A stretch of 64,000 nt of DNA from Isoetes taiwanensis. Taxonomy: Eukaryota > Streptophyta > Lycopodiopsida > Isoetales > Isoetaceae. Within the stretch, counting starts at the first letter, position 1, and every line of letters begins with the position of its first letter. Position numbers and translations under genes: made by a program. The notes under the pieces were generated by a model, which had not been told where the DNA came from, searched no databases, and saw nothing but the letters and a program-made list of their open reading frames with translations. Below are positions 40,600 to 62,831 of this stretch, one piece after another. The stretch lies in contig JAJEKV010000026.1 in NCBI GenBank assembly GCA_021234155.1, positions 18,047,556 through 18,111,555 of the forward strand, written 5' to 3'.

Positions 40600-40720
40600 G
40601 GATCACAAGTAGTGTGAAGGGGGATGACCCTAAAGGATCCCATGGCACCTGCTACCATGTACAAGACAACCATTCTGATGCTTGTTTTTTGTAATGTTGG
40701 TGCAGGTAACAGGATCCTTT
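40600..40720 (+). repeat. Diverged fragment of an older PLE-like unit ('unit 0')
   Basis: The phrases 'acctgctacc', 'aaccattctgatgcttgt' and 'tggtgcaggtaac' occur in the same order and spacing as at about 43055-43110 in unit A and 61590-61650 in unit B ('aaccattctaatgcttgt', 'tggtgcaggtaac'). Similarity fades outside this core. It indicates a third, older unit left of unit A. Confidence 0.65.

Positions 40721-41109: not shown

Positions 41110-41153
<44 letters not shown>
41110..41153 (+). repeat. T44 homopolymer at the left edge of unit A
   Basis: Uninterrupted run of 44 T. Unit B begins after a short T run (52774-52780) at the equivalent place. The run may represent an expanded element end. 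Confidence 0.95.
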
Positions 41154-41158
<5 letters not shown>

Positions 41159-41605
41159 CTTCCTTTAATAGCTTTATGTGTCTTTCCAGCAATTCTGTAA
41201 ACGTAAAGTTCCTAATTGTTTTCAACCATTGGTGCTTTTTTCCTTTAAACTTTAACTTATTACAACCTTTTGTTTTTAATATTTCTCTTTTGTTTATCTC
41301 TTTAACCTAATTTTTTCGTCCCAACTAAACCTTTGCGACCAATTGGCTTACTGTCTCCGATCTTGTTAGATTAGGGTTTGTTTCTCTCTGTCACGATTCC
41401 TCCTGATGGACGGAGACGTCTTCTTACGCCCTTGGCCGGCATGTACTGGCAAGATTGCGGTTATGAACTGAATGGCTGGATCTGTGTTTGCAAAAGCAGG
41501 ATAGGGTTCTTCTGTGAGTATTTATACTTCCTTAGGCTAACATGGATGTCCCCTTCTCCGTGTGATGGCGCTGCTATTGCATTAGGCCCTTGATTGCTTC
41601 TGTTT

Positions 41606-41929
41606 ATGGGAAGGAAGAAAGGCGGCTTGAACAAAGCCACCATTCTAAGATTACAGGAAGAGAAGAAGATGGCTGAGAAAAGAAAGAATCTATTTGACTT
41701 TCATAAGCCTGCTAAGGCTAGAAATATCCCTGGTGCCAATGCTTTACCTGTGCTGGAAGGAGAACGCAGCTCTATCTTAGCTGCACAGATGTCGATTCCC
41801 ATAGCTTTGGATCCTGTGGCTAGTGCTCAAATGAGGATTAATTCTGATGTTCTGCTAAACTCTGAAGCCCATGCTGTTCCTGATGGTGCCCTAATGAATT
41901 CGTCTAGGCCAGCTGTCGAACCATCTCAG
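41606..41929 (+). CDS. Unit A 5' exon, basic N-terminal protein region
   Basis: The start at 41606 (MGRKKGGLNKATILRL) is chosen because the protein sequence is conserved with unit B from this point, while in unit A the upstream frame ends with TGA at 41591. Residues 1-35 are Lys/Arg-rich and helical (possible nucleic-acid binding or nuclear localisation). The rest is polar. The exon ends at 'tctcag|gtttta'. The equivalent exon in unit B is nearly identical, which suggests recent duplication or constraint. I know no family for this segment. Its assignment to the RT rests on being in the same tandem unit and strand. Confidence 0.55.
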
Positions 41930-44233
41930 GTTTTATTTTTTTATTTGTTTTCTGGATTTGTCTTCTTTATGCCTACTTATCCTTTGCTCTGTTCTTTAAT
42001 TCTCTCCTGTAATGGCCTTCTTGTTTAAAGTAGTCTAGTTGTTTTTAATTTCTTTCTCTCTAATTTTTTTACGTTGCTTGACTCAGTTTGTTCTTCTTTG
42101 GGCAAGTTACATTTTACTTTTTGTGCCTCTTTCTCACTTGTTTCTTGTGTTCTCTTTGTTATTTATGTATATTTCCTTAGATTTGTACTGATGTCCTTGG
42201 TTTAGTTCTAGTTAATTCCCTTATTCCCCTTGTCCACCCTTAATTCCCTTATTCCCCTTGTGTCATATCTTTTTTCTGTAACTCCAATTGTCTTTAACCT
42301 TGAGTGAACTTCTAGGCTCCTGATCTTATTAACTCAGTTATTCCTTTTCAATGTGAAATAGCTTAGACTCCCATGTTGTTTGGTGCTCCTACTACATTGT
42401 CTTCTTAGTTCATGATTGATCTAATTTAATTCTTATGCTATCCACATTTGTATTTGCTTTGTCTTTGGTTATTGATGAGAGTCAAGTTATGTTTTCTAAT
42501 GTCTTCAAATTCTTGTGATCTCTGCTATTTCTTTGTTCCTTGTTTCCATTTGGTTTCTGTGAATTTCCTGCTACAAGCTCTATTGCTTTTCCCTAGTTTA
42601 ATGGTGGTTTTAATATTATACATCTCTTGACCTTAGTTCCTCTTTCTGTTTCCCTTTTTAGCTTATTTTCTATGACTGATCTCCTAAGCTCCCGGTATTC
42701 TACTGTAGCTATGGTTGTATATTTCTGTAGAGTAGCTTATTTGCCCAGCTTCTTTTATGCTCCTACTTTATTACCTTCTTTATTCTTATATGATCTAAGT
42801 TTGCCAATCTGCTGTCCACTCTCTGATAGGATTGTTGTCTCTCTTGTGATAACATATACTGTTCTTGTGTAGGTGATTATGCCAGGTTGTGTCCACTGTT
42901 TTCTACTCTATATTCTGATTCCTTTTTTGTTGTTGCATGCTTACATATGATACACTTAATATTTACTGGCCTTATTGTTTGTTAGTGATTATTAACTAAG
43001 TGATTGTGGTGAAAGGCGATAAGCTGGTTTTGGTCCATAGCTTACCTGCTACCCGGTTATTGGCAACCATTCTAATGCTTGTCTAATTTCTTGTGGTGCA
43101 GGTAACCGGACTGAACCCTATTTTGATGCGACTTTAAGTTTTTTTACAAAGCGTTTTCCGCTGAACTTAAATATGGGTGATATTCTACAAACTTGTGTTG
43201 AAGGAAAACTTTTCTTTACAAAGCTTTTTCTGCTGAATTTAAATATGGGTGATTTTCCACAAACTTGTGTTGTTGGATAACTCTTCTATATATCCGGTTT
43301 ATGTTTTACTTTGGATATGACATATCTTTACTTCTATGTTGTTACTCTATTCTGTTTTGAAGTTAGTAAACTTGGTTTGATAATTTTTCCTTTATCTTCA
43401 TTGTCTAATTTTGTTTCTCTCCTTTATTATTTTTGAATTATATTGCCTTATTATGTTTATCTAGTCTCTTGTTTTTTATTTTTACTTTGTTCTCTTTCCT
43501 CTTTTCACAACTTTTTGATTTATTTCCTTTTTTCCATTTGTGTTAAAAGCTTTTTGCTCTTGACCCGTTTTATACTTGTTTGTATTCCTGATTCTTGTAC
43601 TTGGCTTTTCCCTTATTTCTTTCAAGTTTCCTGTCTTGTACCTTCACATCTTCTATGATTTATTAGTTTTATTTTTTGGTAACTACTTCTATGTTTTCCC
43701 CTCCATTTGATGTATAGTTTTCTTTCAGTATTTTTGTTTTGTTCTACCTTGTTTCCTTCCCTTTCTCTACCAATTTAGTTTAAGTTTATTCTCTTTTCCT
43801 TGCGCTCTTAGGCTCTTAAATCTTTCTGTTGTGCTTTGCATTCATAGGTCTTCTTTAACTTGCTTTTTCCTTTTTTATCCTTATTTGGTTCTTATGTTAA
43901 CATTTCTTTATGGTTGTTTTTTTCTGATTTTCTATACTTATTTATCCCTCTTATGGCTAGTTCAACTTCTATCCTTTTTCTACTCTTTTGTTTGATCCTT
44001 TTCAAGGCCTGGATAGGTTTTAAGCACCTTAATATATCTAGGGTTGCTCTTGTATAGGCTTTTCATTCCAAATGGAATGTCTGGTCTTAAAAGTCTGAGT
44101 ATCTAGTCTTAGACTTGTTTATTTCAGACTGGGGGTTTTTTTATGTTATTCCAACTTTCAAGTTTAACTTGAAACCTTGATTAGGGTCGTGGTGCTTCCT
44201 ATTTTCATTTGGTTAATATGTTATTCTGTGCAG
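41930..44233 (+). other. Unit A intron, T-rich
   Basis: Bounded by the donor after 41929 and the acceptor 'tattctgtgcag' ending at 44233. Strongly T/C-rich on the coding strand. Duplicated in unit B (53566-53897 and 60815-62825). A conserved block at 43010-43130 ('gtgaaaggcgataagctgg' to 'tggtgcaggtaaccgg') is also found in the older unit 0 and could be a skipped or alternative exon. Relative to unit B, unit A lacks about 32 bp right after 'ccggactgaaccc'. Confidence 0.6.
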
Positions 44234-44647
44234 AATGTTCAGGTGGATAAAATTGACTTGGATTTGAACAATTCTTGGATAAAGGAGTTGATTGCCCTAA
44301 ACTATGATCAATGTGGTATCTCGAGTCACAATTTTGCTGTTCAAACTCTGATAGCATGCATCAAAAACAAGGATGTACATGAATTCATCACTTTTAAAGA
44401 AAGTTGCCTGGTTGATAAGAATAAATCTCCTGTGAGTTACCTTGGCTTTAATGGCTGGTTTTCTGCTTTCCAAAAGATGAAATGTGCAAATTACAAGCTG
44501 AAGTTTTGTAAAACTCTTATTTCTAAAATTAATGGGGACATGGAGGCTCTTCTTTTTGCTAGGACTTGCATGGAAGATGATTTAGGAAAAAAGTTTTTGA
44601 AACTTACTCATTTGGAGAGTGTACATGATTTGAAGTTTCTAACGTGA
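44234..44647 (+). CDS. Unit A second exon, unknown domain
   Basis: An open frame directly follows a good acceptor. It encodes about 137 residues starting NVQVDKIDLDLNNSWIKEL and stops at the edge of an inserted sequence, so its true 3' end may be lost. It is non-repetitive with several cysteines, like a globular domain. Homologous sequence in unit B would lie beyond the insertion at 62.83 kb and is not in the window. Function unknown. Confidence 0.5.
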   Translation, partial: NVQVDKIDLDLNNSWIKELIALNYDQCGISSHNFAVQTLIACIKNKDVHEFITFKESCLVDKNKSPVSYLGFNGWFSAFQKMKCANYKLKFCKTLISKINGDMEALLFARTCMEDDLGKKFLKLTHLESVHDLKFLT

Positions 44648-45115
44648 AAGCTTTGGGCGGGAGACTATAGCTTTCTTATTGCTGCTGAGCACCATGTAGG
44701 TAGTTGTGGCCTATGTTGGTTGATGGAGGGGCAACATGGAGAGCGATTTGACCACCCTCTATAGGGGTAGGCTTGCAGGGTGTATTGCATAGTTGGAAGA
44801 CAGAGTTCTCTCTTATAGTACAGCAATGCAGATGGTATCCCAAGCCAAGTTAACGCGAGGAATGATGATTGCTCCCATAGGACCTCCAACTACTAGCATC
44901 TTTCGGTGGTGGAGCTACAGATGGACACAATTACAGTTATTAGAGGGATCTCGAGCCGTACTTTCATTGGAAAAGAAGGTTGTAATCTTTAGACCTCAAT
45001 CTTGGAGTAAGATGGTGATGTGATAATTCTGCCTATCAGGCCTATTGTGGAGCCTATGTATTTACTTATTATTATCAATAAAAATATAAATATCTTGCCT
45101 ACAAAAAAAAAAAAA
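44648..45115 (+). mobile_element. Retroposed insertion with polyA tail in unit A
   Basis: The segment ends in 'aataaa' (45078-45083) followed by an A13 run (45103-45115), the mark of a retroposed transcript. Its last bases ('aatataaatatcttgc') match the reverse complement of the insertion at 62.85 kb in unit B, so both may be the same LINE family. The 5' boundary is inferred from where the upstream exon frame ends. A convincing target duplication is not visible. Confidence 0.6.
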
Positions 45116-45162
45116 GTTTTCATTCTGATGATGTTGTGCAATTCTTATAGGGTAGTTTTATG

Positions 45163-45720
45163 AAAAAGAGCCTGCTTTCTGAGGGATCTTCTTGATGAAG
45201 TCTTTGATGGTAATATTGACACGGGCAGTGAGGATGCAGATGACCATGATGAGGTTCCCACCTTGACTCTTCAAAATTCCTTTAGGTTTCGCATTATCCC
45301 AGAACAGAATGTTGAGTGTTATGCAGCAGCATGGGGCCATGCAATTTGGAAAAGTCAAAACTTCGGTGCTATTGCACCTATTAATGTTGACACGTGGAAA
45401 GCTTTGACATGTATTACTGATGATGAGATCAGGTCTGCCACTGCAAAGGCTGCAAAACTGGACAAATATCTCACTAAAGCAGAAGTTTCTTTACCTTTCA
45501 AATCAGACTTCTTTGGTCAACCTTGCCTTCACAATACTTCTCTTCATGTTAGTCAGAAAGGCAATATGGCGTATTCCAATGACAAAAGAGATGCTTTCTT
45601 CTTAAAGAAACTTTGGAGGACATATTACCCTTTCCTTACTTGTGCTTGTGAAAAAGATGCTAAGAAAAATGATAAAATTGATTGCAGGAGTGGGATTGTA
45701 TGGATAGATCAGGCCCCGGG
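45163..45720 (+). CDS. Unit A third coding segment, unknown domain
   Basis: The frame is open from after a TGA at about 45160 to 45736. It begins with an acidic run (DEVFDGNIDTGSEDADDHDE), continues as a folded-looking region with several Trp and Cys, and contains 'FLTCACEKDAKKN' near the end. It lies in the same orientation as the RT and upstream of it. A splice acceptor candidate ('aattcttatag') is at 45140-45150. No GIY-YIG or other nuclease motif is apparent. Function unknown. Confidence 0.45.
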
Positions 45721-45736
45721 GGGTTCACCTCTATAA

Positions 45737-47833
45737 AAAGGGCATATGGCATGTGCGTGCATCAAGTCAGGAGAAACCCCTATGTATACAGCTGACCCTC
45801 CATAGAAACCTTTAAATGTAATTATCCCATGGGTAAAGAATCATACCCGATTCCATACTTTTACACCAAGTCTAAGCACTTCTTGCCCTACCCTTAACCT
45901 TATTTTTACGTCCATTATTCATTCATGTATCCTACCCTTTCAAATATTTACATCCAAAAACAATCCAAAATGTTACATCCAATGATCAATTAGGGTTCTT
46001 CCTCACGGCCATTTTAGTTCAATGGTCACTCCAAAAAAATAAGAAAAAGAAATATGTCTGGAATACATAGGGAAGTATATATTTTATATATTTTAATTAA
46101 ATCGATTTTAGGATGACATCATAACAAAATTGATTATTGAATAATGACTTTAAATTAATTATTGGGTAAATAAACGCATCCCTTAAGAACGCAAAGGCAC
46201 TTAGTTCACTTAGCTCACTTGACATTTCACTTTAAAAATGGACCCCCTCATGGCGTGGGATCAAAGATATCAAAATATTAACACTTAAAAAAGAAACAAT
46301 CCACAATCTTAAGCTCAATGATCAATATAGAATACAGAGATCACGGTAATTACGCAATAGTTTAGGCAGCACTTTCAAAAGACGGTTGCCATTATTGCAT
46401 CACAAACTAATATCTTTCTGTTTCAAAAGTTTCTTTCACCATAGCAGGTTGCAACAAAACAAAACAGCTGGTTCAAGCATCAAGGTGTAGTACAAATCAC
46501 AAAGCAAAAGAAGCTTCATCAAGTACAAAGCAAAAGAAGGTTCATCGAGGCGTGGTACAAATCCAAGCTTTTCTTTCTCCTGCACCTCAACATCTAGAAA
46601 TCTAAATGTCCAATTCAATAGACCATTTTAAATACTGAATTGAAATTTGTAGGACCACGATGGTATACCAAGATTCCCAACCAGGATAGCAATACATTAA
46701 ACACGTGTCTGTAAATGCAAATCAGTTTGAAAACAACAAAAGAATCCTCAAAACATCATGATAAACTAGATTTTCATTTAATATTTTAGATCAAATTTTC
46801 TAAAGTGATTCTGTACCTCTTATTATGGTACAGACTGATTTCTGATATGTAAGTTTCCTTTGCAAAGACTTGAAAGGCTCAGCGGGCAAGTAGAGCTACA
46901 ATATGTTCCTAGCATATATGGTAATCATTGTCTTGCATGGCTTGGTAGTTCTCTTAACCATCGTATCTAACATTGAAATGGATGGGAAGGTTAGCCGCGC
47001 ATACGTTGAAATCAGAGCATTCCGTGGAAACACTTGAGGCTGAAGCACAATTCTAAAATGCAGCTCATCAAAGAAAATTTGAAAGACCCTGTTCTACATG
47101 CAAACTGACATTCTGAATCTTGTGCATGCTGCATGTCCGCTTTGATGTCTTAATCGTCGCTTAAAGATCGCTTAAAGATGTTGGAAGGAATAGAGTGCAT
47201 ATCTCAACTGTTTCTCCTGAGCATATCCTGCAAATCATAAAGCTAGAACATCAGACATACTTCTTTGAGCTGGTCGTGCAATGTTAATGTACTTACCATA
47301 ATCTTCCATGAAGTCACGTATACACTGGGCATTTGCTAAAACAGCTGAAATGGCAACTTTACTTTGCCCTTTTCAATGTGAGCAGAGATCATAGTATTCT
47401 ATCATACTACATTCATGTCACGCATCAGCTTAAAATCTGCTAAGGCTTCGTTAAGCATGTCACGACATAAACAAACTTCAATCATGTCATTCCAAGAGAC
47501 GCATTCTTTTCAGGCATACGTCAGAACATATCAAAAGTTTCATCAATTTGTCTTTGACGTGTAACCGCAGTCGCTCAGGTATAATCTGAAACAGTATCCT
47601 CATAGATGATAACTACCCATATTGGGAATAAGCAGCAAGCATTATTACTCCAAAGCAATTTGATTTATCAACTTCTCAAACATTTGTTAAGCCTCCCGGA
47701 AAGCTTCAACTATACATGTGCACAGAAGGTTTCTTAAATATGTATCCATACGTCAGCCCTTTTGGATAAAATAATCATGAATATACTCACCTTTTGAAAG
47801 ATTTTTTGCATGAATAATCATGAATATACTCAC
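45737..47833. other. Intron or insertion between PLE-like exons, noncoding
   Basis: A 'tataaaaag' box at 45732 and AT-rich sequence with no open frame of note. The minus strand here could hold the 3' part of the SET-domain fragment, but I could not recognise further exons. Confidence 0.4.
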
Positions 47834-48367
47834 CTCCATGATTGCCAATAACAGCACACGCTCCCAACCATAAACAATCACCCTCGTTTAAGCATACCTC
47901 AACAGCCAATCTGTCATATGGATTGTCAGCATCAACAAATCCATAGTTCAGCAACAATCTTGAATTTGGCTGTGGACCACACCTGTGTAAATTACAAATT
48001 ATAAGCAGACAAAATAGCAACTTATGTAACTAGCAAACCATTCATTTAGAAGTATGCATGCCCAATATATACAACATTGATGCAGCAAATGGTACAACAT
48101 TGATTGATACAACATTGACTGCACATTATTCATTACACAGTCTGAAGATCATGAACAAATACTCACCACACAAGAATTGGATCCCCAGCTTCATATGGAC
48201 GATCTACTTGCAACTGGACTTCATCCCCCACGGCCTTCAACATTGCTTTGCAGCTACTTTTATATGCCAGTAATGGTGGTCCCAAAGGCACCAACACAAA
48301 GCGCCTTGGTAGACTGACGCCCTGAACATATTTCCCGTCATGAAGATTGTAGGTCACGGCCATTACC
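47834..48367 (-). pseudogene. SET-domain methyltransferase fragment (Rubisco LSMT/SETD3-like), two exons
   Basis: The first exon (48367-48177, minus) is preceded by 'aaatacag' and ends at 'tgtg|gtgagt'. The second (47982-47834) is preceded by 'ttacacag' and ends at 'ggag|gtgagt'. Joined, they read through the C-terminal part of a plant SET domain: 'VDRPYEAGDPILVW' then 'CGPQPNSRLLLNYGFVD' and 'NPYDRLAVEVCLNEGD'. The Asn-Tyr-Gly-Phe segment is the SAM/substrate-proximal hallmark of this family, which methylates lysines of chloroplast or cytosolic proteins. The N-terminal SET part and the Rubis-subs-bind domain are not found nearby, so it is a fragment, antisense to the host element. Confidence 0.78.
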
Positions 48368-49711
48368 CTGTATTTCCATATTTAACAAATAGTACAAAGG
48401 TTCTGCAACCTCCTAAATTTTTCGACAGACAGAAATATTTGGACACGACTTAGACTTATACTAAGGTCATTTGAGTGCGCAAGTGCAAATGAACCACACA
48501 TGACAGAACTGCCACAAAAGCCTGTTTGAAGATCTTAAAACTAAAAGCTTCTGAGGGAATGTCAAAAGGATATTGCTACAAGAAAATGCCCCAACTCAGT
48601 TTTCAACATGGAAACATCAGAAACGTGATGATCTAGAGACATAAGCCATACTATGTCTAGCTCCTGATACTCACGTTTAATACCCTCCAATCTCTCTAGT
48701 CTTAACTGGACTTCCATGAAAGTACTCATCAAGCTCTTCATGCGACCAGACGGTAAAAGCCCTTCCAAGATATTTGCAAAGAAGAGGTACTCCACATCAA
48801 ATAAAGAAAAAATTTTAAGCTTCAAAGCCAGATGAAGATAGCTATCGATCATGGAGGTTGCCATAACTTGCATTATAAATAGGAAAAGGTGCCAGCATGT
48901 TAGTTTTTTGTCTATGCAATAATTGAATGCTCATATCTACACCATCGCAACAAATACAATGAGATTAGCAGATCCAATATTATGCAAAAGCTTAGATCAA
49001 GAGCAAAAGGGATGGCTACCCCTGCCAGAATGGCTCTTCAATGCTCTAACCTAGCTTCTCTAAGAAGGTAAAAAATGCTCTAACCTAGCTTCTCATAGAT
49101 GTTCTTAGATTAAAAGCAGGTTTGAATCCGATTGGGGAAGGCATGCATAGCCTTGGGGGGCAAAAATTGCAATCGACCATTAGACCCGAGTTAAATGATG
49201 CCCATCAAAACCCACGCAAAAGATCAACCTGAAATAGATATTGCCAACAACCGAGGTAATCTCAAGAATGCACGCATGCAAAAATTTCCACAGCTTGATT
49301 TTTAATGCAAACTAGAGCGAAAATGCCCACAAGCGGCGGATGTGTTGCATGACTAAACTCGGTGGTAGATTTTTTATGTGGCGGGGATGAAAAACTTCAA
49401 AACATTACCTCCAAAACACCAAATCCCTTGGCGTTTTTATGGCAGCTTGTTTTAAGGCAAGCAGTTCAAAGCCCTCAAAATAACAAGTAATACTATTATA
49501 GTACATCGAGTCTTAGCGAAGTCTTTGGGGCAGCGAAGAAATCCATCCGGGTTCAAAGCCTAAGTGGAAAATGCATCCCGGACCGTACATCATCCGGCGC
49601 CAAAGCGTATGAAGCGACCCAGCGGTATCACGTACTTTTTTTTTCAAAGAAACCCAGATTCTCTGAAATACATGTGAACCCCCTCCCAGAGATCGGTGAT
49701 TACGGTTTATT
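48368..49711. other. Noncoding stretch between the SET fragment and the next PLE-like exon
   Basis: A minus-strand frame at 48562-48873 is helical and Leu-rich but unrecognised. It could be another exon of the fragment above. A duplicated 'ctctaacctagcttctc' occurs at 49045 and 49080. Nothing else stands out. Confidence 0.4.
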
Positions 49712-50232
49712 TTGAACAATCTTGATTTGGTATTTCCTGGAGCTTCTCCTATGGCAAAGATGGTTGGCCTTACCAAAATGTTACATATTGTTCTTAAATC
49801 AGCTGTCCTTGCATACCTCTCATACCTTGAGGTTAGAAGGGTTTTGATCAACATGACTCTTTTGTACGCAGAGGCACCTGACACTAATCTTAAAGCTGCT
49901 TTTGGTAACACAAAACTAGCTGATATTGCCGAGAAAACTCTTAGGCCTATGGCTTTTAGAATGGAACAAATGGCTAAGAAAAAAACGCCTCTTCATAAGA
50001 TTGAAAGTTCCAACAGCAACATCTCGTCGAACTTTTTTTCTCCTAAGCGACCTCCTAGGGTCACTTTGGATCCTAGACTTTCTGGTGGCAGCAATTTGGC
50101 TGTAATTAAGCAGGCAAAACAGGGTGGCAGTCTTCTTACTAATGATGAGTACTCGGTGACTAAGGGAGGTAACAAAGTTATTAACTTGGATGAGATGGAT
50201 GCTACCAAACTGAATTATAGGGATATCACAAG
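49712..50232 (+). CDS. Unit A exon upstream of the RT domain
   Basis: The open frame encodes a helical segment (MAKMVGLTKMLHIVLKSAVL...), then a basic Ser/Pro-rich linker (about residues 85-125) and a polar stretch ending at the donor 'caag|gttagt' at 50233. The following intron is 332 nt and ends at 'ttttttag' (50564). The phases of this donor and acceptor do not keep the RT frame open, so one indel or an unusual junction must be assumed. Likely the N-terminal part of the RT polypeptide. Confidence 0.5.
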
Positions 50233-50564
50233 GTTAGTTTTTACCTCCTATTTCCTTCGCTACTTTCCTTTTATTGTTATATTCTTTGAGCTTATTATTC
50301 TTTCCGTTTATTGTAATATTCTTTGTGCTTGTTTATCTTTTCTCTTATTACTGTATTTCTCCATTACTCTCCTTTGTCCTCCAAGGGTTTTTATGAAAAG
50401 AGTTTTCCCTTGGAGTGATATAATTGATTCCAAAGAACTTTTATTCCTATGGATAATTGGTTTATCCTTTTTCTACCTTAGTTGGCTTCTGGGCCCCTAT
50501 GGTTCCCTTTTGTTTAAGTTTTTTCCTCTCTTTTTCGTATTCTGAAATCCAGTTAATTTTTTAG

Positions 50565-52619
50565 GATCTGAACCAAATCTCAAGGTCGGTGATTAAAGAC
50601 TGCAATGGTAAAAGACATTTGGTCTCTACCAAAAATAAGTCCAAGAGTAAAGTGGTACACAGTACCTTCTTCTCCAAGTCTTTGGAAAAGTTTAATATTA
50701 GAGACATCTTCAAAGTCGTCCTGTCAGATTCTCTACCTCTAATTGCCAATGAACTTTTGGAAAATACTCTGTTTGGTTGGAGATATGTGGATCAATTAAG
50801 AGATAAATTATACAAGCCATTTGAGGTGTTTGCTGATGGCTTTCCGAAAAAATGTCCTTGCAAAAATCCAAGCTTGGCTAGATTTATTGACCCTGCCATT
50901 GGCCATATTCGTACCATGGATTTGGAAATTATACATTGTCCTAAACTAAGGATTGGCTTATCTTTTGGATTGAATCATATTCCTGATAATGCTCTTTCTG
51001 TTGATAAGTTCTTGGTTGACTTCAAAGCCACCATTGAGTAGTTCTTTTCCATTCATCGATACAGCCTGTTACATCTTTCTGAGCTGGAGATTTTGACCAT
51101 TAAGGACAATTTGTTTAACCTTGCAAAACGCAGAATTACGGCATTCAAAAACAGTCTGGAACATAAAAGGTTCTTATGGGATGATGGTAATGTGAAGAAA
51201 AATGTATTATAGTTACTGAAAAACTTGTACATTTCTGAAGTTGACAAAGCTGGTAATAATCCTTCTTTTATCTGCCAATACCATATTAGGGAAATGGCAT
51301 TCATCAGACTTTCCAGTTCAGACTTTGAGGCCATTTCTACTAGTCCTGCTGATATTAAAGCAAAATGTTCATATGATATTTCTAGCTTCTTGGGATTACA
51401 GTTACCTCTTAGCAACAGATTACCGTATCTCATGGGGATTTTTAAGGCCCACAAAGGTGAATATAGGTGACTGACTAATGCACATGGCACCATCTTTACG
51501 GAAGTCTCAGACTTGATCACTGCTATTTTGAGTAATTTTGTGGAGATTTGGCCTGCAATCTGCCATTGGAACACAGCAGAAATTACACTGTGGATGGGAA
51601 GTAAGGTAAACCCCTGTTGTCTTATTAATTCTTCATTTAACTTTGTCCTCAATCTGCCTTCCAAGATTTTCAATGTGTTCTCCATTGATATTACTAAATG
51701 CTATGAAAATATCCCTCTTGAGGGACATGCGGGTATTGTGGAAGTGATCAATGATGTGGCTTATCTTGTATGGGATTATATGCCCCACAAAGCTCCCCTG
51801 TCTAAATTAGTTGTTACTAGCTTTGCTGGTTCTTACAAAGTCAAGTGGAGAAAGTTTATTGAGGGATCTTCGATTGGCTGGGTAGTTACGAAACATGAAT
51901 TTTGCAAAATCAACAGTTGGCTGCTTTCCCATTGCTTTCTTCAAATGGGTTCTCAGATTTGGAGACAAAAGAAGGGTATTCCCATGGGTTTTTCAAGTAG
52001 TCCTGCCTGGTGGAACTTATATCTGGCCTGGTTTGAACTCAGGTTCATTTCTAGGTTAGCAAAATTGAACAGATTTAATGATATTGCTAGGTTCCAATAT
52101 TCCTCGAGAAATAATGATGATCTTTGTGTTATTAATGGTGGTGATCTCCAACTCTTCTTTTCTCCTGATTCGGACTGTTCTATTTACAATATGACCCTCT
52201 TAGAGATAAAGGATGAAACGGTATACAGGAGAGATTGTAGACTTGGTACCAGTATTAATTTTCTTAATGTCTCCATCCATGTGTTGGGCCCAAATAATGG
52301 GCTGTTCCAATACTCCAGATATGACAAAAGGAGGAAGTTAAACTTCAAAGTTAATAGATTTATCAAAGCTGCTGGGTGTAGACCCTATGGCCAATCTTCT
52401 AAAGTCATCGTTTCTCAGATTTTACCCTTTGTTTATGCACATTCTAGTTGTCTAGCCGCGGCTGAAGACATATCAGATCTTATAAGTGCTTTCTGCAATA
52501 ATGGGTTTCAAAAGATGGACATCATCAAAATTGTCCTGAATACTCTCAAGGTGAACAACTTTCCTGGTTTACCCTTTGACATTGAGGATTTGTCCCGTAT
52601 TCTCAAAAAAATACTGTAA
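50565..52619 (+). pseudogene. Penelope-like reverse transcriptase, frame broken by three stops
   Basis: One continuous frame of about 685 codons is interrupted only by TAG at 51039, TAG at 51210 and TGA at 51468. Order of features: 'KKCPCKNPSLARFI' and 'GHIRTMDLEIIH' (about 50850-50930), a PLE-type 'GLNHIP' segment (50970), 'DKAGNNPSFICQYH' (51243), 'LPYLMGIFKAHKG' (51420), RT motif A 'DITKCYENIP' (Asp at 51687), motif B 'GIPMGFSSSP' (51975), motif C 'RNNDDL' with the Asp pair at 52116-52121, then 'INFLNVSI' and a C-terminal 'YDKRRKLNFKV' region. This order and the post-motif-C FLD-like segment resemble Penelope-like RTs rather than LINE or LTR RTs. The residue before the Asp pair is Asn instead of the usual hydrophobic/aromatic. 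No GIY-YIG endonuclease follows, so it is EN-less or has its nuclease elsewhere. All three stops fit single G-to-A/C-to-T changes. Confidence 0.78.
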
Positions 52620-53241: not shown

Positions 53242-53565
53242 ATGGGAAGGAAGAAAGGTGGCTTGAACAAAGCCACCATTCTAAGATTACAAGAAGAGAA
53301 GAAGATGGCTGAGAAAAGAAATAATCTATTTGACTTTCATAAGCCTGCTAAGGCTAGAAATATCCCTGGTGCCAATGCTTTACCTGTGCTGGAAGGAGAA
53401 GGCAGCTCTATCTTAGCTGCGCAGATGTCGATTCCCATAGCTTTGGATCCTGTGGTTAGTGCTCAAATGAGGATTAATTCTGATGTTCTGCTAAACTCTG
53501 AAGCCCCTGCTGTTCCTGATGGTGCCCTAATGAATTCGTCTAGGCCAGCTGTCGAACCATCTCAG
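53242..53565 (+). CDS. Unit B 5' exon, basic N-terminal protein region
   Basis: Nearly identical to 41606-41929 at the protein level, beginning MGRKKGGLNKATILRL and ending at the same donor. In unit B the frame is also open upstream to an ATG at 53041 (MDGDVFLRPWAAMYWQ...), because the TGA of unit A is TGG here and a 1-nt indel is absent. The longer form could therefore be the original start, adding about 67 residues. Only a few amino-acid differences separate the copies (e.g. K/N, R/G, H/P). Confidence 0.55.
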
Positions 53566-53897
53566 GTTTTATTTTTTTATTTGTTTTCTGGATTTGTCTT
53601 CTTTATGCCTACTTATCCTTTGCTCTGTTCTTTAATTCTCTCCTGTAATGGCCTTCTTGTTTAAAGTAGTCTAGTTGTTTTTAGGTGTTCTTCTCTCTAA
53701 TTTTTTCTGTTAGCCAGCTCTAGATTTGTTCTTCTTTGGGCAAGTTACATTTTACTTTTTGTGCCTCTTTCTCACTTGTTTCTTGTGTTCTCTTTGTTAT
53801 TTATGTATATTTCCTTAGATTTGTACTGATGTCCTTGGTTTAGTTCTAGTTAATTCCCTTATTCCCCTTGTCCACACCTCTGATGTGTCATATCTTT

Positions 53898-55981
53898 TTG
53901 GGTTGCCCCTAGGGGGGCAATCCCTTGTTTATGTGGGTTTTTGGCATATTCATGGTATATGCTAGCATATACCTAGAATATGCCAAAAACTGCTAAAAAC
54001 CTGTTGTAAGCTGTAAATGCTAGGTCATCCCCATTTGCCCGGTAATTTCTTTGTGTGCATCTGCGGCTAACCTAAGTTTGGATGCATGGAGGCCATGCGG
54101 GAATGATGCAACTCCTACGATCCGGCATTTGCCTCGTTTCCCAACAGACCGAGTCAGGGTTTTTTCTTGCTTCATTTTCTGCTAACTATTTTCCAGGAGG
54201 TTTGATCGGCGCCAGTTAGCTGTGGTTTCCATGGCTAGCTTGTTTTGTCTCTCCCCTCACGAAGGCTATGGTGGCATTTCCTCTTTGGATAAGTAAGAAT
54301 TCAAGCATCACTATTTTAGTGTTTAACCTAAGAAGGATCATTTAAATGCGGACCTCTAAAGATCGTAGGCTGTCGGGGAGTTGTCGGATCTATTTGCAAC
54401 ATGCCCAAATAGATACCACGGCCCACAATCCTGGATAATTTGGGACGAGAGAACAAAATTTTTTAAAAGCTTTTCGACCTTAGTTTATGACCAGGAGGAA
54501 GAATGGTATTCAATCAAGTCCACGGTTCTTCGAAATCACGAGCTTTTAAGATATTACGTTCCTGTTCTTCAAGATAAATTTTGGTAGTTTTGAGGACCTT
54601 GGTGATTATGGCAGCATCTTTTGGATGAAGATTATGGCAGCATCTTTTGGATAAACCACGGTACACTTTTTCTTGCTAGCTCGAATGTTTTTCTTATATT
54701 CCTTGCATTTGTGACACTTTTAAGGCCCTTATAGAAGGGATCTCTTTGTCAACCCGGACTTGGATATTTGAGGCCTCCATTTTTCTTCTATGTTTGGTTC
54801 TCAACCTTATTTACTTTGTCATTCCACAGCCATGATTGGCAAACCGCATCCAGATCTTATGGATCATTTTGGCATGATTTGTTTTGATGCATTTACGGAA
54901 TATTATATCTGTAGTTTCTAGGCGACCGCCGATGCTTGAAAGATGTTGCGGTTGTCTTGCAAAAATGCATGGAGGTCGTTCGCGGATCTCATTTCTAACT
55001 TTGTAGCAGATGGTTGGGATGGATCTGCGAAACATCAAGATATAAGAAAAAGTAGTTTGTTGTAGTGCAAAAGCACGGAGGACTTTGCGGTGCAGCTCTT
55101 ATTTGATGAGTGCTAGTGTGCCTTACAAATCAGGGAATAAGGCAACAAGGATAGCGATGGGCTGCATGAAGCTTGACAAGAGGAAGAGGCAGTTGTCTCT
55201 AGCTTGTGTATCATATACCAATTTGTAAATAGTGCTTGTGTTATTGTGCTTCTTTGGCGGCGCTGATAGTGTAGTTAAGTAAGTTTCGTTTCCTGTCAAT
55301 TCAAGAGTCATGTATAGATCGAAACATAGACATAGCATACTGGATATTTGTAGTTCACTTAATGATCTGAGGGATTGGAAAAATTGAGATATGGAGTTAT
55401 TATGCCACTAACTGGCTTAAGATGAGGACCATGGGGATTGTGGAAAAATGATAATTTGTCTTTGAGCGTGGGCAAAGGGATGTGGAGAATTAGGGATAGC
55501 CTTTTTATAATAAGCAAATGAGCATTGCAGGTTTTGTTGGGAGAGAAAGCCAAACTATGTTTGGGGGAAAGCCAAATTACGGCATGCCGGAGAGATAAAG
55601 CAACAAATTATGGCAGTGAATGGACAACATTGTTATGTGTTGGTAGCCCATTTAAGATGTCTAGAGGTTAAGAGGCATGCTAGGTGATTAAGCAATTTGG
55701 TGAAAAAAGATGTGTTAGGAAGGAATTTACAAGATATACCAACGTAATGCTATGTGGGATGTTTGTTATGGTTGAGAGGTGGGATTGATGCCGTTCTGGG
55801 ATAATGAAATATAAAGAAGGGGAAGTGAAAAAGTGTTTTCATCAATGTCGGCCAAAATCTTATGCTTTATAGGATGTTAACGTACCATATAGACCTAACT
55901 ATTCCTAAGGATTTTGTATTTAAGTGTCTAGCTGCATTATGTTTGTAAGCTCAATTTTGTCCAATCATAACATATGAATAT
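53898..55981. other. Left part of the insertion, no gene supported
   Basis: Short frames only. A 68-codon frame at 54381-54587 ('NRYHGPQSWIIWDERTKFF') has ordinary composition but no known domain. 'gattatggcagcatcttttg' occurs twice in tandem at 54605-54650. Confidence 0.4.
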
Positions 55982-57645
55982 TTGTTTCTTTTTGTACACT
56001 GGCAGATGCATGGAGTTAATGAGAATACGCAAGCATCCCACTTCTTCATCACCGCTCTGCTACAGGTTTTCCAATCCCTATTAAATTCATGCATTCAAGA
56101 AGCGCAACATATAATTTGCTATTGCTCTGAGACTTTTGAACTCTTGTGTGCAACTCTGGAATTGCCTGATATGCTTAAGGACACAATTAAAGATTCACCA
56201 AGTAACAGGCATGTTGCATACCCCAAGAGAAGGTTGCAGGTTTCATCTTCGCTGCTTAGTCGATCTTATCAGGGTTATGTTGTCCCTCCAAGCCCAGGCA
56301 TCATAAAGGGTGTTTGTCAAAATATTCAACTGGAAAATAATAATACCGTGGCTAATGGCTGTCTTCCAATGTCGGAAGCACCTTCAGAGACTGATAAAAA
56401 ACATGTAGGGCTATCAAGGACAAAATTTACTAGGAAATTGAGAGTTCTTTGCCAGAAAAATAATTGTACATGCTTCAAATATGAGGATCTTGAAAAAGCA
56501 ACATGTAAGTTTTCTTTAGGTACTACTCTCTCTTATCCTAAGCGCGTATGTCTTTAGGACCTAGCTCACTATATGAACATGGTTTTATGTTGCCGGAAAA
56601 ATCTTGTTGGAACCCGGAGGATCTGATAAAGTGTATGGGGGTATATTAAATGATGGGAAGGTAGTGGCTGTTAAATGCTTGAATGAAGGTGCTTGGAGCG
56701 AGCGAAGAGCTCGGCCAGTAGAAATTCTCAATTACTTTAAGCCACCCTAATATTGTGAATTTACTTGGTTCTTGTGTGGATGAAAGAAGCCGATTCTAGT
56801 GTCTGACTTGTCCTCTAATGGGAACCTGGAAGAGAATCTTTATGGTAAGAATTCTTGAAAAGCATTCATTGCATGCTCCACATTGCAACATCGTTTTACT
56901 TCATATTTTGCGGGGGAAAGATCTCAAATTCGGTGTTGCCTTGGGAAGCAAGATTTAGAATTGCGGTGGATCTTTGCCAAAATTTCTGCTATTTGCATGA
57001 CTCTTGTCCACGACCAATTATTCATAGAGTTGTGAAATCGACAAATATTCTTTTTTCAGCAGATTTTCAGGCTCAGGTTGGTAAATATAATCGAGAAATG
57101 CTAAAGATGAACACCACTGATGATGCTAGTGCATTCAGATATCTGACTTTAGACTTGCAAAGTGGGCTCCATCAAATTCATCCCATATTACATGCCCATA
57201 TGTTGTTGGAACTCTAGGGTATAAACACTAATAACCTTTATCTACAAAATGACATCTCACACATACTAATTCATTTGTTTACAATCTCAAATACAGGTAC
57301 CTGAATATTTCATGTTTAGGAAAATAAATGAGAAAACGTACGTATACTCATTTGGTGTAGTGTTGCTGCAGCTTATAACTAGAAGACAACCAATCGATGT
57401 GTCTAAGCCTGAAGGACAAGAGAATTTAGTGGCATGGGTAGGGAAGATTTGCAAATATGTTTCCAGAAGCTGACCCTTCCTAATGTTGGAGTTTCAGAGT
57501 AGACCATTGCTTGAGGCATAAAATATGGGGGAGCTTATTGATCCTCAACTAAAGAGCCAATACAATGGCATTGAAATGAAAAACATGACCGATTCTGCGG
57601 CCGATTGTTTGTTTTTGCCCGACCATCTCGATTTGGTTCTAGAAT
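55982..57645 (+). pseudogene. Receptor-like cytoplasmic kinase pseudogene (RLCK VI-like)
   Basis: Parts of a plant kinase appear in order with frameshifts and stops. The N-terminal ~190-codon frame has 'QASHFFITALLQVFQSLLNS', like the USP-type region of RLCK VI proteins, and ends 'FKYEDLEKATCKFS'. The ATP-site region is 'KVYGGILNDGKVVAVKCLNE' (56630-56690, catalytic Lys kept). 'DLSSNGNLEENLYGK' follows (56805-56848). 'PWEARFRIAVDLCQN' and the catalytic loop 'PIIHRVVKSTNILF' come next (57015-57050), with Val (57029-57031) replacing the catalytic Asp. 'PYVVGTLGY' is in another frame (57200). An exon after 'atacag' at 57297 reads 'VPEYFMFRKINEKTYVYSFG' and 'RQPIDVSKPEGQENLVAW'. Lost Asp and several frame breaks mean no kinase activity. 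It is probably a captured or inserted host gene relic. Confidence 0.8.
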
Positions 57646-57769
57646 AAGCAGGGTAGGCTTACTAAATGAAACAAATTATGCGTTATCAAACAACCTTTTA
57701 TAAAATTCCATCTAAATTGTGAAAATTCACCAAAACATTGTTTTTAGGTGAAATTGTTGGTTGGAGAAC

Positions 57770-58480
57770 AAAATGGCTTGCAATGGCCTGCAACAAAATG
57801 CAGATCGATCCGACGGATCGCGATTCTCGAGCCAGACGAGCATGCAAGAGTTGCATGCGTTGCCTGCGATGCATTGCATGCATTTCGACCTCTCATCGGT
57901 TAGGGGATCGCTATTTCTTCTGCATTAGCCTTGACTTCTCATGGCTTTCTCTTAAGCCCGGCGGTTTTGAGTTATGTTCTATGCTCTCATGCGGAGGGGG
58001 GCTTCCTCTTGCATGGGTTGACCTTCGTGGCATTTCCTATCATTCTTGTTTCTCTTGACCTGACCTTTCTGGCGTATCCCTTCTGGCGTTTCTTATCGTT
58101 CTCGGTTCTCTTCTACCTTGGCTGCGTTGACCTTTCTGGCGCATCCCTTCTGGCGTTTCCTATCTTTCTCGTTATCTCTTCCTATCCTTCTCGTCTAAGC
58201 TTCTACCTCGGCATTCCTCCACTATGGGGCAATTCTTGAGCCTTCATCTCGGATCGGCCGGAAGTTCTCTTCTTCGAGGCGTTGTTGTGTCATGCGAGTC
58301 GCGGCTCGAATCTTGGTCGATCCGGCGGATCGCGATTCTCGAGCGGGACGAACATCCCACAAGAGTTGCATCGTTGCCTGCATGCATTGCATGCATTTGA
58401 ACCTCTCATCGGTTAGGGGATCGCTATTTCTTCACGCATTAAGCCTTGACTTCTCGCCGGCGCTTTCTCTTCGCCAAGCA
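57770..58480 (+). repeat. Direct duplication flanking GC-rich sequence
   Basis: About 180 bp at 57775-57955 and 58305-58480 share 'ggatcgcgattctcgagc', 'aagagttgcat', 'gcattgcatgcattt', 'ctctcatcggttaggggatc' and 'ccttgacttctc'. Between them lie two tandem copies of 'ttctggcg(c/t)atcccttctggcg' (58066-58165). The composition is more GC-rich than the surroundings, and the duplication leads into the LINE-like tail. Confidence 0.85.
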
Positions 58481-58639
58481 GATGTTCGAGGTTATGTTCT
58501 ATGCTCTCCCTCCCTCCCTCCCCCCTTAAGTATTTTGTTTATATATGTTGTTAGCGTGGCCGCGCTTTAATCGACCCTCGCTTTTGAGGTTTTTGTTCTT
58601 CTCTATTGTGTTTGTGGTCTTATGCAGTGCGAGGCGTTG

Positions 58640-58945
58640 CCGCGGCGTTGGTTTCTTTTGGGCGTGGGTTTTGGGAAGTTTAGCGTAGCCCGTTGTCTAA
58701 GCCCTTTGCCTAGGGCCTTGCTCGCTAGGGTTTTCCTCGAAAACCGAAGGGCTGGATTTTTAATCCGTGATAAATACCAGGCGGTACACTAGTAAACATC
58801 TATGATATATTTTTGTATTTTGGGGTCCGGGTGTTATGACCGGATATTCCCTGTATTTTTTTGTTTTGGGTAGCTTGGAGTATCAGACTACCCACTCTCT
58901 ACCATTGTAATTACAACTGGATGAATAGAAAAAGCCCCATCCATT
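58640..58945 (+). mobile_element. LINE-like 3' tail (plus strand)
   Basis: 'gggttttcctcgaaaacc' then 'gggctggatttttaatccg' follows the same order as the minus-strand LINE 3' ends at 36.0 and 36.9 kb ('ttttccctcgaaaaccc', 'gggggttttttaacccgg'). It is followed by T-rich sequence with a small hairpin ('gggtag...ctaccc', 58868-58893). It is probably the remains of a related LINE whose body is lost or merged with the duplicated segment upstream. Confidence 0.5.
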
Positions 58946-60814
58946 CGAAAGAGTTGTGTCATGCAGTGGCGCAATCGAGAATTTGGTGAATCGTTCATTC
59001 GGGTCATATCTCGATGAAATTGGGAATCCGACATCAGAGACATTTGGCATTAGCCATGGTAGGAGTTGATGATGATTTAGCTTCAATTAGCACGGGCCAG
59101 CAGTCGTGAGCACTGAAGAATACCTTGGAGGAAGGTTTTTCCAGCTGTTCCCCTAGCCCCGGAATAACATGTTTATCAAATCCCTATGCCTGGGAACCTG
59201 TGCTATACGACACCATTGTTTTGTATACATAGTTCAATGTACATGATTCGAGTTAAATTCTGCCTTTCTTTGGAAATTGTGATAAATTAGTTGGAGGAGC
59301 ACTTCCGGTTGAAAAGGCTAAGTATCTGAGGATAATCATGGAAATGGGGAGACCAATTTGGCTTCAAAGGCAAAAGCCTTGATAAGAAATGGCATTTTCC
59401 TATTCTGGTATCGTTGGATTAAGGTTTCTTTCTTGAACTGAAACTTAATTGTTAGGAAGAATGCATGGTATTTAAGATGGTTCAAATGTGTCTTTTGTCT
59501 TCTGTTTAATGTGCATCCTTTTTAGCCTCACCGTAGCTTGTGCAATAGCAAGGTTAGACTGCTTTCTTACTTCTAGATCTTAATATGAGTTTAAGGGTCT
59601 CTATTGCGTTCATTTTAAACCATTGGATATTATCTTATATATCCCCTCTACGAAATTTACACATCAAATTTGGGTTGAATTTTTTTGCCAAAGAGTACTA
59701 TAATGGTTGTCACATAGTGGGGCATTGCTCAAGGGTACTATAATGGTTGTCAATGGTTGTCATGTGTGTCAAGGGTACATTGCCTAGTCGTCAACGTCAA
59801 CGGGGAACTCCTGCATTAGAGATTTCAATCTCTCAATTGTACAAGATCTATATAGTCGTCATAGCCATTCGATGACGATTATACATATGTTCATATACTC
59901 GACTTGATATTGTATGTAGCATGGTGTGGTATGTGACAGTCAGGTCATGTGCAAGTAGTATTTGGTTGCTTTGGCTTGGCTTGCTGAGGGGGTATGTGGG
60001 GTATGGGATAAAGCCTTGAAAAGGTTGGGGCCCATTATATAACGATTTTCATGAAGGATCCGCCCTCTTGGTGTGTTGCTTAGCACTAAGAGATTATTGT
60101 GTAACATTTGGCATCACAACCAAGGTTCAATTAGTGGCAGCCACCACCATGTAACTAACTAACTATAACTTTCCCACCATGTTGTGGATCATGTATGTTA
60201 CTACAATTTCAACTTGCACCATCTGCTATATGCCATTTGTGATCCTAATAATTTGGTTCCAATTCAAACATGTATGGAATATATCCAAATACCAAGTGAA
60301 GATCGTAGTTCCACACTATATAGAAATGCTCCATGTCGAATGTTTATTTCCTTATCTAATACATCCACGTGATGTGACTCGTTTAATGGTGCTATAGATG
60401 AAGACCTATAGCTTAAAATATTGCGAGTACTGGGAAGTGATGACATTGCGAGGTTTGGAGTTAGGCTATGCATCAATGTTTCATTCCTCTACAAAACCTG
60501 CTCCTCAGATGTTTGAAGCTCTTCGTGACAAAAAATTGATCAGAGGTCTTCAAGCAGTTCTCTCATTTCTATGCTAACAAAACATGTATTTCCATTCTCT
60601 GCTCTATTACACTTGTCCTTATGCTTCTGCAATACTTCTTCCATGCCGAGCACCAAATATTTCTTCAGGCCAATTCCAATAAAGTCATGGTATCAAGTAT
60701 TCTATTGTCTAGAAGTAGCAATTTGAATTGATTGTCAAAACATGACTTTGGACTATGATTTAAGCCACATCACCCTCCGGCCATGGAGGGCAACCCGCCG
60801 TGCACAGCACCTTG
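58946..60814. other. Right part of the insertion, no gene supported
   Basis: AT-rich noncoding DNA with short chance frames. A small repeat of 'gtactataatggttgtca' lies at 59695-59765. The last 45 bp hold the hairpin and inverse 'ggttgccc' motif described for the insertion. Confidence 0.4.
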
Positions 60815-61959
60815 TTTCTGTAACTCCAATTGTCTTTAACCTTGAGTGAACTTCTAGGCTCCTGATCTTATTAACTCAGTTATTCCTTTTCGCTGTGAAA
60901 TAGCTTAGACTCCCATGTTGTTTGGTGCTCCTACTACATTGTCTTCTTAGTTCATGATTGATCTAATTTAATTCTTATGCTATCCACATTTGTATTTGCT
61001 TTGTCTTTGGTTATTGATGAGAGTCAAGTTATGTTTTCTAATGTCTTCAAATTCTTGTGATCTCTGCTATTTCTTTGTTCCTTGTTTCCACTTGGTTTCT
61101 GTGAATTTCCTGCTACAAGCTCTATTGCTTTTCCCTAGTTTAATGGTGGTTTTAATATTATACATCTCTTGACCTTAGTTCCTCTTTCTGTTTCCCTTTT
61201 TAGCTTATTTTCTATGACTGATCTCCTAAGCTCCCGGTATTCTACTGTAGCTATGGTTGTATATTTCTGTAGAGTAGCTTATTTTCCCAGCTTCTTTTAT
61301 GCTCCTACTTCATTACCTTCTTTATTCTTATATGATCTAAGTTTGCCAGTCTGCTGTCCACTCTCTGATAGGATTGTTGTCTCTCTTGTGATAACATATA
61401 CTGTTCTTGTGTAGGTGATTATGCCAGGTTGTGTCCATTGTTTTCTACTCTATATTCTGATTCCTTTTTTGTTGCTGCATGCTTACATATGATACACTTA
61501 ATATTTACTGGCCTTATTGTTTGTTAGTGGTTATTAACTAAGTGATTGTGGTGAAAGGCGATAAGCTGGTTTTGGTCCATAGCTTACCTGCTACCCGGTT
61601 ATTGGCAACCATTCTAATGCTTGTCTAATTTCTTGTGGTGCAGGTAACCGGACTGAACCCTCCATCTGTTTACTTGGTGTTCTTGGGAGCAAAGATTTTG
61701 ATGCGACTTTAAGTTTCTTTACAAAGCGTTTTCTGCTGAACTTAAATATGGGTGATATTCTACAAACTTGTGTTGAAGGAAAACTTTTCTTTACAAAGCT
61801 TTTTCTGCTGAATTTAAATATGGGTGATTTTCCACAAACTTGTGTTGTTGGATAACTCTTCTATATATCCGGTTTATGTTTTACTTTGGATATGACATAT
61901 CTTTACTTCTATGTTGTTACTCTATTCTGTTTTGAAGTTAGTAAACTTGGTTTAATAAT

Positions 61960-62120
61960 TTTCCCTTTATCTTCATTGTCTATTTATTTTTTTTTATTTT
62001 TTTTTGAAGGATGAGATTAAGTAATATTAATATAGAGTAAGTACAAGAAGAGCGATACTAGGGTGCCCCTGCCCAAACATGGGCGAGCACCCACATATTT
62101 CCCTTTATCTTCATTGTCTA
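61960..62120 (-). mobile_element. 115-bp retroposed insertion with 23-bp target duplication in unit B
   Basis: Positions 61960-61982 and 62098-62120 are identical 23-bp copies, present once in unit A (about 43391-43410). The 115 bp between begin with a T-rich tract, which is an A-rich tail on the minus strand, and contain 'gggtgcccctgcccaaacat', absent from unit A. This is the full signature of target-primed reverse transcription of a short or 5'-truncated LINE/SINE transcript. Confidence 0.93.
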
Positions 62121-62831
62121 ATTTTGTTTCTCTCCTTTATTATTTTTGAATTATATTGCCTTATCATGTTTATCTAGTCTCTTGTTTTTTATTTTTACTT
62201 TGTTCTCTTTCCTCTTTTCACAACTTTTTGATTTATTTCCGTTTTTCCATTTGTCTTAAAAGCTTTTTGTTCTTGACCCGTTTTATACTTGTTTGTATTC
62301 CTGATTCTTGTACTTGGCTTTTCCCTTATTTCTTTCAAGTTTCCTTGTCTTGTACCTTCACATCTATGATTTATTAGTTTTATTTTTTGGTAACTACTTC
62401 TATGTTTTCCCCTCCATTTGATGTATAGTTTTCTTTCAGTATTTTTGTTTTGTTCTACCTTGTTTCCTTCCCTCTCTCTACCAATTTAGTTTAAGTTTAT
62501 TCTCTTTTCCTTGCGCTCTTAGGCTCTTAAATCTTTCTGTTCTGCTTTGCATTCATAAGTCTTCTTTAACTTGCTTTTTCCTTTTTTATCCTTATTTGGT
62601 TCTTGTGTTAACATTTCTTTATGGTTGTTTTTTACTGATTTTCTATACTGGTTCGACTTCTATCCTTTTTCTACTCTTTTGTTTGATCCTTTTCAAGGCC
62701 TGGATAGGTTTTAAGCACCTTAATCTATCTAGGGTTGCTCTTGTATAGGCTTTTCATTCCAAATGGGATGTCTGGTCTTAAAAGTCTGAGTATCTAGTCT
62801 TAGACTTGTTTATTTCAGACTGGTTAAAAAG

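Follow-up and report, generated by a model that had tools for sequence, protein, structure and literature searches.

In a 64,000-nucleotide stretch of the Isoetes taiwanensis genome (the window, by which we mean the whole stretch; coordinates count from its first letter), positions 41147-62823 most probably hold a decayed copy of a large family of Penelope-like retroelements (PLEs) without a recognisable GIY-YIG endonuclease. The copy is one insertion in which two direct repeats of 3.0 kb, copy A at 41147-44132 and copy B at 52774-62823, flank an 8.6-kb interior. With later insertions removed, B aligns with A over 2936 columns at 97.9% identity, with 39 transitions and 23 transversions (Kimura two-parameter distance, K2P, 0.0215). 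The order of parts, repeat, exon 2, reverse transcriptase (RT), 3' untranslated region (3' UTR) and repeat, is the pseudo-long terminal repeat (pLTR) plan of PLEs. The window copy is dead, having three stops in its RT frame and nested insertions.

An earlier note on this DNA had described two long head-to-tail units, but these are the pLTR pair around one interior. The supposed second unit does repeat the 5' exon, together with most rather than all of the ~2.3-kb intron; it is split by insertions at 53880-60810 and 62009-62097 and ends at 62823, about 100 bp short of exon 2. Of the diverged third unit that the note placed to the left, no more than a weak match was recovered (40544-40714 versus 61483-61652, 65% identity, E 5e-8). 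Tandem copies, which the note took for a trait of such elements, exist as head-to-tail arrays elsewhere in the genome (C1042), not at the window site. Its identification of a Penelope-like, intron-bearing element remains the best fit, given the direct pLTRs, the arrays elsewhere, the introns and the CxC, DKA, GIPMG, DD, FLN and DKR motifs.

Gene structure and distribution of the family

The gene, on the plus strand, comprises exon 1 (108 codons, within the pLTR), an intron of 2.3 kb, exon 2 (~500 residues), a second intron of ~0.35 kb and exon 3, which encodes an RT of ~680 residues; splice sites were predicted from sequence alone. Exon 1 (41606-41929) begins MGRKKGGLNKATI and ends CAG/GT; it is conserved within the downstream pLTR and, from its methionine onward, in relatives where found. 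Intron 1 (41930-44233) runs from CAG/GTTTTA to GTGCAG/AAT in phase 0. Exon 2 (44234-50232) is a single open frame in other copies. In the window it is broken by two insertions, at ~44640-45117 and ~45715-49703, and what had been read as separate exons at 44.2, 45.2 and 49.7 kb is this one exon. Both insertions are missing from locus L031, where exon 2 is uninterrupted in one frame, and at 16 loci (L033-L048, L033 being L031's copy) the exon 2 frame spans 447-660 residues and is stop-free in 15. Intron 2 (50233-50584) opens with the donor AAG/GTTAGT, a pattern present in 17 of 30 loci by regular expression; of two possible acceptor AGs, at 50564 and 50584, the latter keeps the phase of the RT frame. 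The intron-like gaps of the earlier note were confirmed, and predicted spliceosomal introns are retained in genomic copies. An inverted repeat is also present in intron 2 (50381-50413, CCAAGGGTTTTTATGAAAAGAGTTTTCCCTTGG), with similar stretches in other copies and in the tandem units of locus L058 considered below.

Exon 3 extends over 50585-52619. The frame at 50565-52619 was correctly recognised as that of an RT, but it is not uninterrupted, since it contains TAG at 51039, TAG at 51210 and TGA at 51468. Its motifs are CxC (50853), DKA (51243), motif A (51687), GIPMG (from 51972), RNNDD (from 52107), FLN (52260) and YDKR (52320). The sequence GTAAGT sits on the RT stop codon (52616-52621). A splice-donor-like GTAAG of this kind lies close to where the RT ends at 26 of 30 loci and supplies the first in-frame stop in 22 of 28; some loci have it at this place without using it as the stop, and the non-autonomous unit of L058 has it too. 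No conserved partner acceptor was found for it. In-frame splicing from this site into exon 1 of the next unit fits copy B and was rejected as not conserved across loci.

The genome search that the earlier note had proposed covered 1,658,258,908 bases in 1110 contigs. It gave at least 65 scored RT matches including the window copy (4752 candidates) and at least 96 scored exon 2 matches (3755 candidates). Full-length RT frames were present in 48 of the 65, 37 of them stop-free, and dN/dS was 0.07-0.33 in 13 RT pairs. Many RT genes are open and under purifying selection. For at least 37 of the 65 RT matches, an exon 2 match precedes the RT on the same strand by no more than 6 kb; in 30 of these 37 the distance is 527-658 bp. 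A single RT/exon 2 pair within 8 kb lies on opposite strands. The same-strand association indicates that the exons and the RT belong together. Paired pLTRs around an interior were also found at C64 (97.6% identity over 2741 columns) and C1049 (97.8% over 3083), and the pLTR repeats of the C1042 array are 98.0% identical over 2697. At 24 of 30 loci the nearest contig end is over 0.5 Mb away (the exceptions are L005, L018-L021 and L027).

The reverse transcriptase and the search for an endonuclease

The window RT was aligned with those of 22 of the 29 other loci, the remainder being excluded for stops or partial matches; in this alignment (A1) the window RT carries X at its stops. Across the 23 RTs the motifs CPC, DKA, YR..NAH, DI..C.ENIPL, GIPMGF, the DD pair, FLN and DKR are invariant, and motif A is separated from motif B by 96 residues with conserved W and K. 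The profile check suggested in the earlier note was answered in part: all 23 RTs gave a weak match to the Pfam family RVT_1 at E <= 1 (best 2.4e-6; the window RT scored 18.6 bits, under the Pfam cut-off of 29.6), but the profile search of the PDB returned no RT. Weak PDB matches to BURRH were attributed to its helical repeats, and nothing in the PDB searches was credible.

A profile of the family RT was compared with 757 sequences, namely six-frame pieces of the host telomerase RT (TERT) loci, of one GIY-YIG locus and of window positions 1-41000, plus an unverified animal PLE RT as reference. The family profile scored 59.8 bits with this reference RT, and its best real piece came from the host TERT locus (E 0.04). 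On the minus strand at 37657-38199 the window holds a fragment of another RT (RVT_1, E 5e-4) that is LINE-like by eye, and this RT did not appear among the family-profile matches up to E 10. As a genome query, the reference RT scored at least 144 candidates, the best at E 3.4e-19, and most of them are not among the 65 family matches; against the family profile, two more distant members of this wider RT group reach 544 and 362 bits. These comparisons, made with an unverified reference, point tentatively to PLE/TERT rather than LINE affinity, and assignment to the PLEs rests on architecture, motifs and that one reference RT. Relatives were not found in viral contigs (queries: window RT, reference RT, alignment A1 and alignment A4, which combines L059 and L060 with nine family members), in prokaryote contigs (query: A1), in plasmids (window RT and reference RT) or in phages (window RT).

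A GIY-YIG nuclease was sought both within the gene and around it. Pfam found no GIY-YIG domain in exon 2 (12 members) or in the RT exon (23 members). In the genome at least 121 GIY-YIG matches were obtained from the best 150 of 263 candidates. Those scored all lie more than 20 kb from each of the 65 RT matches (the nearest, among the 121 listed, is 58 kb away) and more than 38 kb from the 144 candidates of the reference RT. At one sampled GIY-YIG locus (L057, C1030:3964600-3970600) the frame stands beside one that is helicase-like by eye, and no RT of the PLE family was found there; this GIY-YIG is probably part of a different mobile element. Exon 2 contains an invariant H-C-x4-C-x-C pattern and one more cysteine (alignment A2, 12 of the 16 loci), which by its look alone suggests metal binding. 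Pfam scans of the 12 members yielded nothing credible and the PDB search with exon 2 matched no structure; exon 2 might conceivably encode a strongly diverged nuclease.

Termini and RNA structures

The ends of the element coincide with T-runs and with two T7 boxes. Box 1 (52774-52780) is the T7 with which the right pLTR starts. Box 2 (GGGGGTTTTTTTATG, 44131-44145, with its T7 at 44136-44142) lies ~100 bp upstream of exon 2. At the left junction the T-run at 41110-41146 merges into the element's own first T7, giving a full run of 41110-41153. In all four copies whose left end was read (window, C64, C1049 and C920) T-runs of 44, 25, 20 and 20 stand at Box 1, and after them comes the stretch found downstream of Box 1 in every unit. 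Three of four right ends (window, C64 and C1049) lie at Box 2 or 3 to ~13 nt before it and pass into T-runs of 23, 29 and 12. The window's right pLTR stops 3 nt before the position of the Box 2 T7, and is followed at 62824-62854 by TTAAAAAG, which ends at 62831, and T23; the left counterpart is TTTAAAG plus T44, and these flanks are a possible imprecise target duplication. The right T-run has the appearance of a reversed A-tail belonging to another retroelement, one whose 3' end matches that of the 44640-45117 insertion (89% over 54 columns, E 1e-13).

Immediately upstream of Box 1 the 3' UTR (52616-52773, plus strand) begins with the GTAAGT at the stop codon and ends with GGAGGAAGGG. It can form a long hairpin, a proposed pseudoknot between loop and tail, and a terminal hairpin. 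Alignment A3 comprised 23 of 30 loci; L007 and L010 (rearranged tails), L012 (a near-duplicate), L014 (interrupted), L028 and L030 (incomplete matches) and the structure-less L029 were excluded. The structure scored was that given by RNAalifold on the same alignment with the pseudoknot added by eye. Over 30 pairs, 96.4% of cells were paired (slid controls 39-56%), 7 pairs and 29 cells were changed on both sides, and covariation was 0.209; each value was reached in 0 of 500 shuffles. In this test and in that of the Box 2 hairpin below, shared descent can lift related sequences above shuffles. One pseudoknot pair is G-C in 11 rows and A-U in 10, and the covariation term of RNAalifold was only -1.43 kcal/mol. 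Folded singly, L001, L005 and L023 give the long hairpin, and z-scores, L018 included, were -2.9 to -5.2. Genome-wide, a core of 35 nt from the 3' UTR was counted 176 times (<=2 mismatches), and its reversed control not once.

A second covarying hairpin, TTTCAAG/CTTGAAA (7 bp, 44156-44174, plus strand), lies 3' of Box 2. In alignment A5 (13 rows, the window plus 12 of 16 loci; L033, L038, L042 and L044 excluded) 98.9% of cells were paired, 11 cells were double-changed and covariation was 0.473, each in 0 of 500 shuffles, with slid controls at 3-63%. Rfam searches found no hammerhead in window positions 40900-63400 (E <= 1) or in L005, L018, L023 and L058 (E <= 2). No ribozyme reached its gathering threshold in the window, the searches at E <= 1 or 2 gave only chance-level matches, and a U12 match over the L058 3' UTR (23 bits versus a gathering value of 53, E 0.78) was likewise taken as chance.

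The 3' UTR core also marks tandem arrangements. Among the places listed, C936 has three cores 12.98 kb apart and two exon 2 matches with the same spacing, and nine contigs have neighbouring cores 2.8-3.8 kb apart. Locus L058 (C919:1583200-1592200) is filled throughout by at least three tandem 2.82-kb units that are 97% identical. Each contains the 3' UTR core and an exon 1-like frame, and at E 0.01 neither exon 2 nor the RT was matched in any of them; L058 is a non-autonomous tandem. As these RT-less units retain the 3' structure, it presumably acts in cis.

Proposed mobility and alternative readings

On our preferred reading the family is a PLE lineage without GIY-YIG endonuclease that primes on poly(dA), by a mechanism that we infer as follows. 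Transcription from a promoter in the pLTR would continue through the next pLTR downstream. Once spliced, the RNA would encode a protein of ~1,280 residues; left unspliced, as a read-through product that starts in one pLTR and extends into the following one, it would serve as template, and introns would therefore persist. The RT would bind the structured RNA ends. A genomic T-run, in at least some cases the A-tail of another element, would supply a poly(dA) 3' end that pairs with the U7 of Box 2 and primes complementary DNA (cDNA) synthesis inside the transcript. Synthesis would halt at Box 1, just 3' of the 3' UTR structure, and the A-rich cDNA end would be joined to the far side of the T-run. 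Either a nick already present or cutting by a nuclease so far unrecognised in exon 2 could provide the primer. A bolder reading, which we consider clearly less likely than not, is that the lineage has exchanged endonuclease targeting for telomerase-like priming at T-runs with poly(dA) 3' ends and two U7 boxes. The ~110-nt, possibly pseudoknotted RNA at Box 1 would then be a self-cleaving or template-end ribozyme, or a recognition RNA, of a kind not yet described, that sets the 5' end of new copies and supports short tandem non-autonomous elements. PLE RTs are held, in the account given in PMC3846280, to share ancestry with telomerase, and a large plant family of this kind would allow one to study how such an RT, lacking its own cutter, locates a primer and a template. 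It could add a third route of PLE mobility beside endonuclease-containing (EN(+)) insertion and telomere attachment.

Several traits recall the Penelope/Poseidon elements, as represented by the PAc element of Anolis (PMC11167929) and Pen1-6 of Adineta (PMC3846280). Shared with them are tandem or partial-tandem units that yield pLTRs, kept introns, a 5' coding part within the pLTR and AT-rich targets. One Adineta Pen5 copy is described as having a spliceosomal intron in its open reading frame, and intron-bearing genes as having moved (PMC3846280). Priming at Box 2 would resemble the internal cDNA initiation described for PAc, near the start of the reading frame at an AC-rich stem-loop and with a preference for AT-rich DNA (PMC11167929), although an exact fit is not claimed. 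Unlike Penelope/Poseidon, the Isoetes family has no GIY-YIG that we could find, pLTRs of about 3 kb versus ~0.2 kb as given for Adineta (PMC3846280), a ~500-residue exon of unknown fold, T-run junctions, no Rfam hammerhead and a different junction RNA. The L058 array is comparable with the retrozymes sketched in PMC11722881, which are small non-autonomous units, tandem in animals, that rely on a foreign RT and carry a structured RNA in each unit. It differs in that no hammerhead was found, its units are ~2.8 kb and its RNA is uncharacterised.

A number of observations weigh against the PLE assignment or the proposed mobility. The PDB profile searches failed to return even TERT, the best match to a real sequence outside the family was a piece of a host TERT locus with only 7.8 bits (E 0.04 among the 757 pieces), and the PLE reference RT is an unverified sequence. 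GIY-YIG scoring covered only 150 of 263 candidates. Splicing and the transcript template are predictions, and either of two AGs may be the intron 2 acceptor. The termini are known from four left and four right ends only; the right end of C1042 falls inside exon 2 rather than at Box 2, the sequence to the left of C920 looks by eye like the terminus of a further family copy, and beyond the T-runs no target duplication is readable except the loose TTTAAAG/TTAAAAAG pair. Box 2 is missing from L038 and its T-run from L042. For the 3' UTR, 492 of 500 shuffles had as many further pair types, L018 alone folds into a different structure and L029 lacks the structure altogether. For the Box 2 hairpin, the 3 pairs with double change were equalled in 71 of 500 shuffles and the further pair types in all 500.

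Membership of the Naiad/Chlamys clade, with the nuclease lost or replaced, has in our estimate a probability not far below even. These elements reportedly (Craig et al. 2021) have an N-terminal GIY-YIG, a CxC linker, an insertion in the fingers, a bias towards microsatellites, pLTRs and no hammerhead. The CPC invariant in all 23 RTs, the 96-residue spacing of motifs A and B with its conserved W and K (a possible counterpart of the insertion in the fingers), the pLTRs, the T-run junctions, the lack of a hammerhead and the match of the animal reference RT to the wider RT group agree with this placement. Against it, the defining N-terminal GIY-YIG was not found in exon 2, nor was a scored GIY-YIG match found in the neighbourhood of the RT places, and the clade features come from description rather than sequence comparison.

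It is also possible, with an appreciable probability that stays well short of even, that the family is an endonuclease-deficient (EN(-)) PLE of the known telomere-associated type (Selaginella, rotifers and fungi) that merely lies interstitially here. The likeness to Athena, Coprina and the Selaginella elements is the lack of GIY-YIG, none having been scored near the RT matches. Plant PLEs are not new: Dryads and EN(-) PLEs are listed for conifers and EN(-) PLEs for Selaginella (PMC9033089), those of Selaginella being telomere-associated (PMC12477314). The Isoetes copies differ in being interspersed, most lying far from contig ends; their junctions are T-runs, and no tandem telomere-like repeat was found in the window. 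The Selaginella elements were set apart by description only.

A long terminal repeat (LTR) retrotransposon with 3-kb LTRs is highly improbable: the direct repeats around an interior suit it, but there are no TG..CA ends, introns are present, the ends are T-runs, Pfam scans of the exons gave no protease, integrase or RNase H, and an array elsewhere has repeats that end inside the unit. We give as little credence to an immobile, tandemly duplicated host gene family with an RT, which would account for introns, purifying selection and tandem arrays but not for the spread over many contigs with repeated same-box junctions or for an RT-less tandem derivative, the host TERT gene lying elsewhere. The word Penelope is absent from the main text of the Isoetes genome papers PMC8566536 and PMC10541799, so such repeats may be unannotated there; among open-licence papers, a joint search for Isoetes and Penelope gave none that treats this subject by its title.

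The insertions within the element differ in character. That at 44640-45117 (plus strand) is retroelement-like, with an A-run at its end. The ~4-kb insertion at 45715-49703 has a 10-nt inverted end match (GGGGGTTCAC) at chance level (E 0.05), and its minus-strand frames at 47787-48381 resemble by eye a fragment of a SET/LSMT-type host gene, with no Pfam match. In the right pLTR, the insertion at 62009-62097 is ~90 bp long and that at 53880-60810 is ~6.9 kb, the latter with a 9-nt inverted end match (GGGTTGCCC), again at chance level (E 0.23). It contains a weak protein kinase-like fragment at 56849-57217 (Pfam scan, E 0.04) and is possibly a DNA transposon with a captured gene piece. To the left of the element, window positions 2592-22327 are occupied by a long array of ~1.1-kb repeats; four frames scanned gave no Pfam match, the GC content is 0.50-0.58 and the copies are about 73-82% alike.

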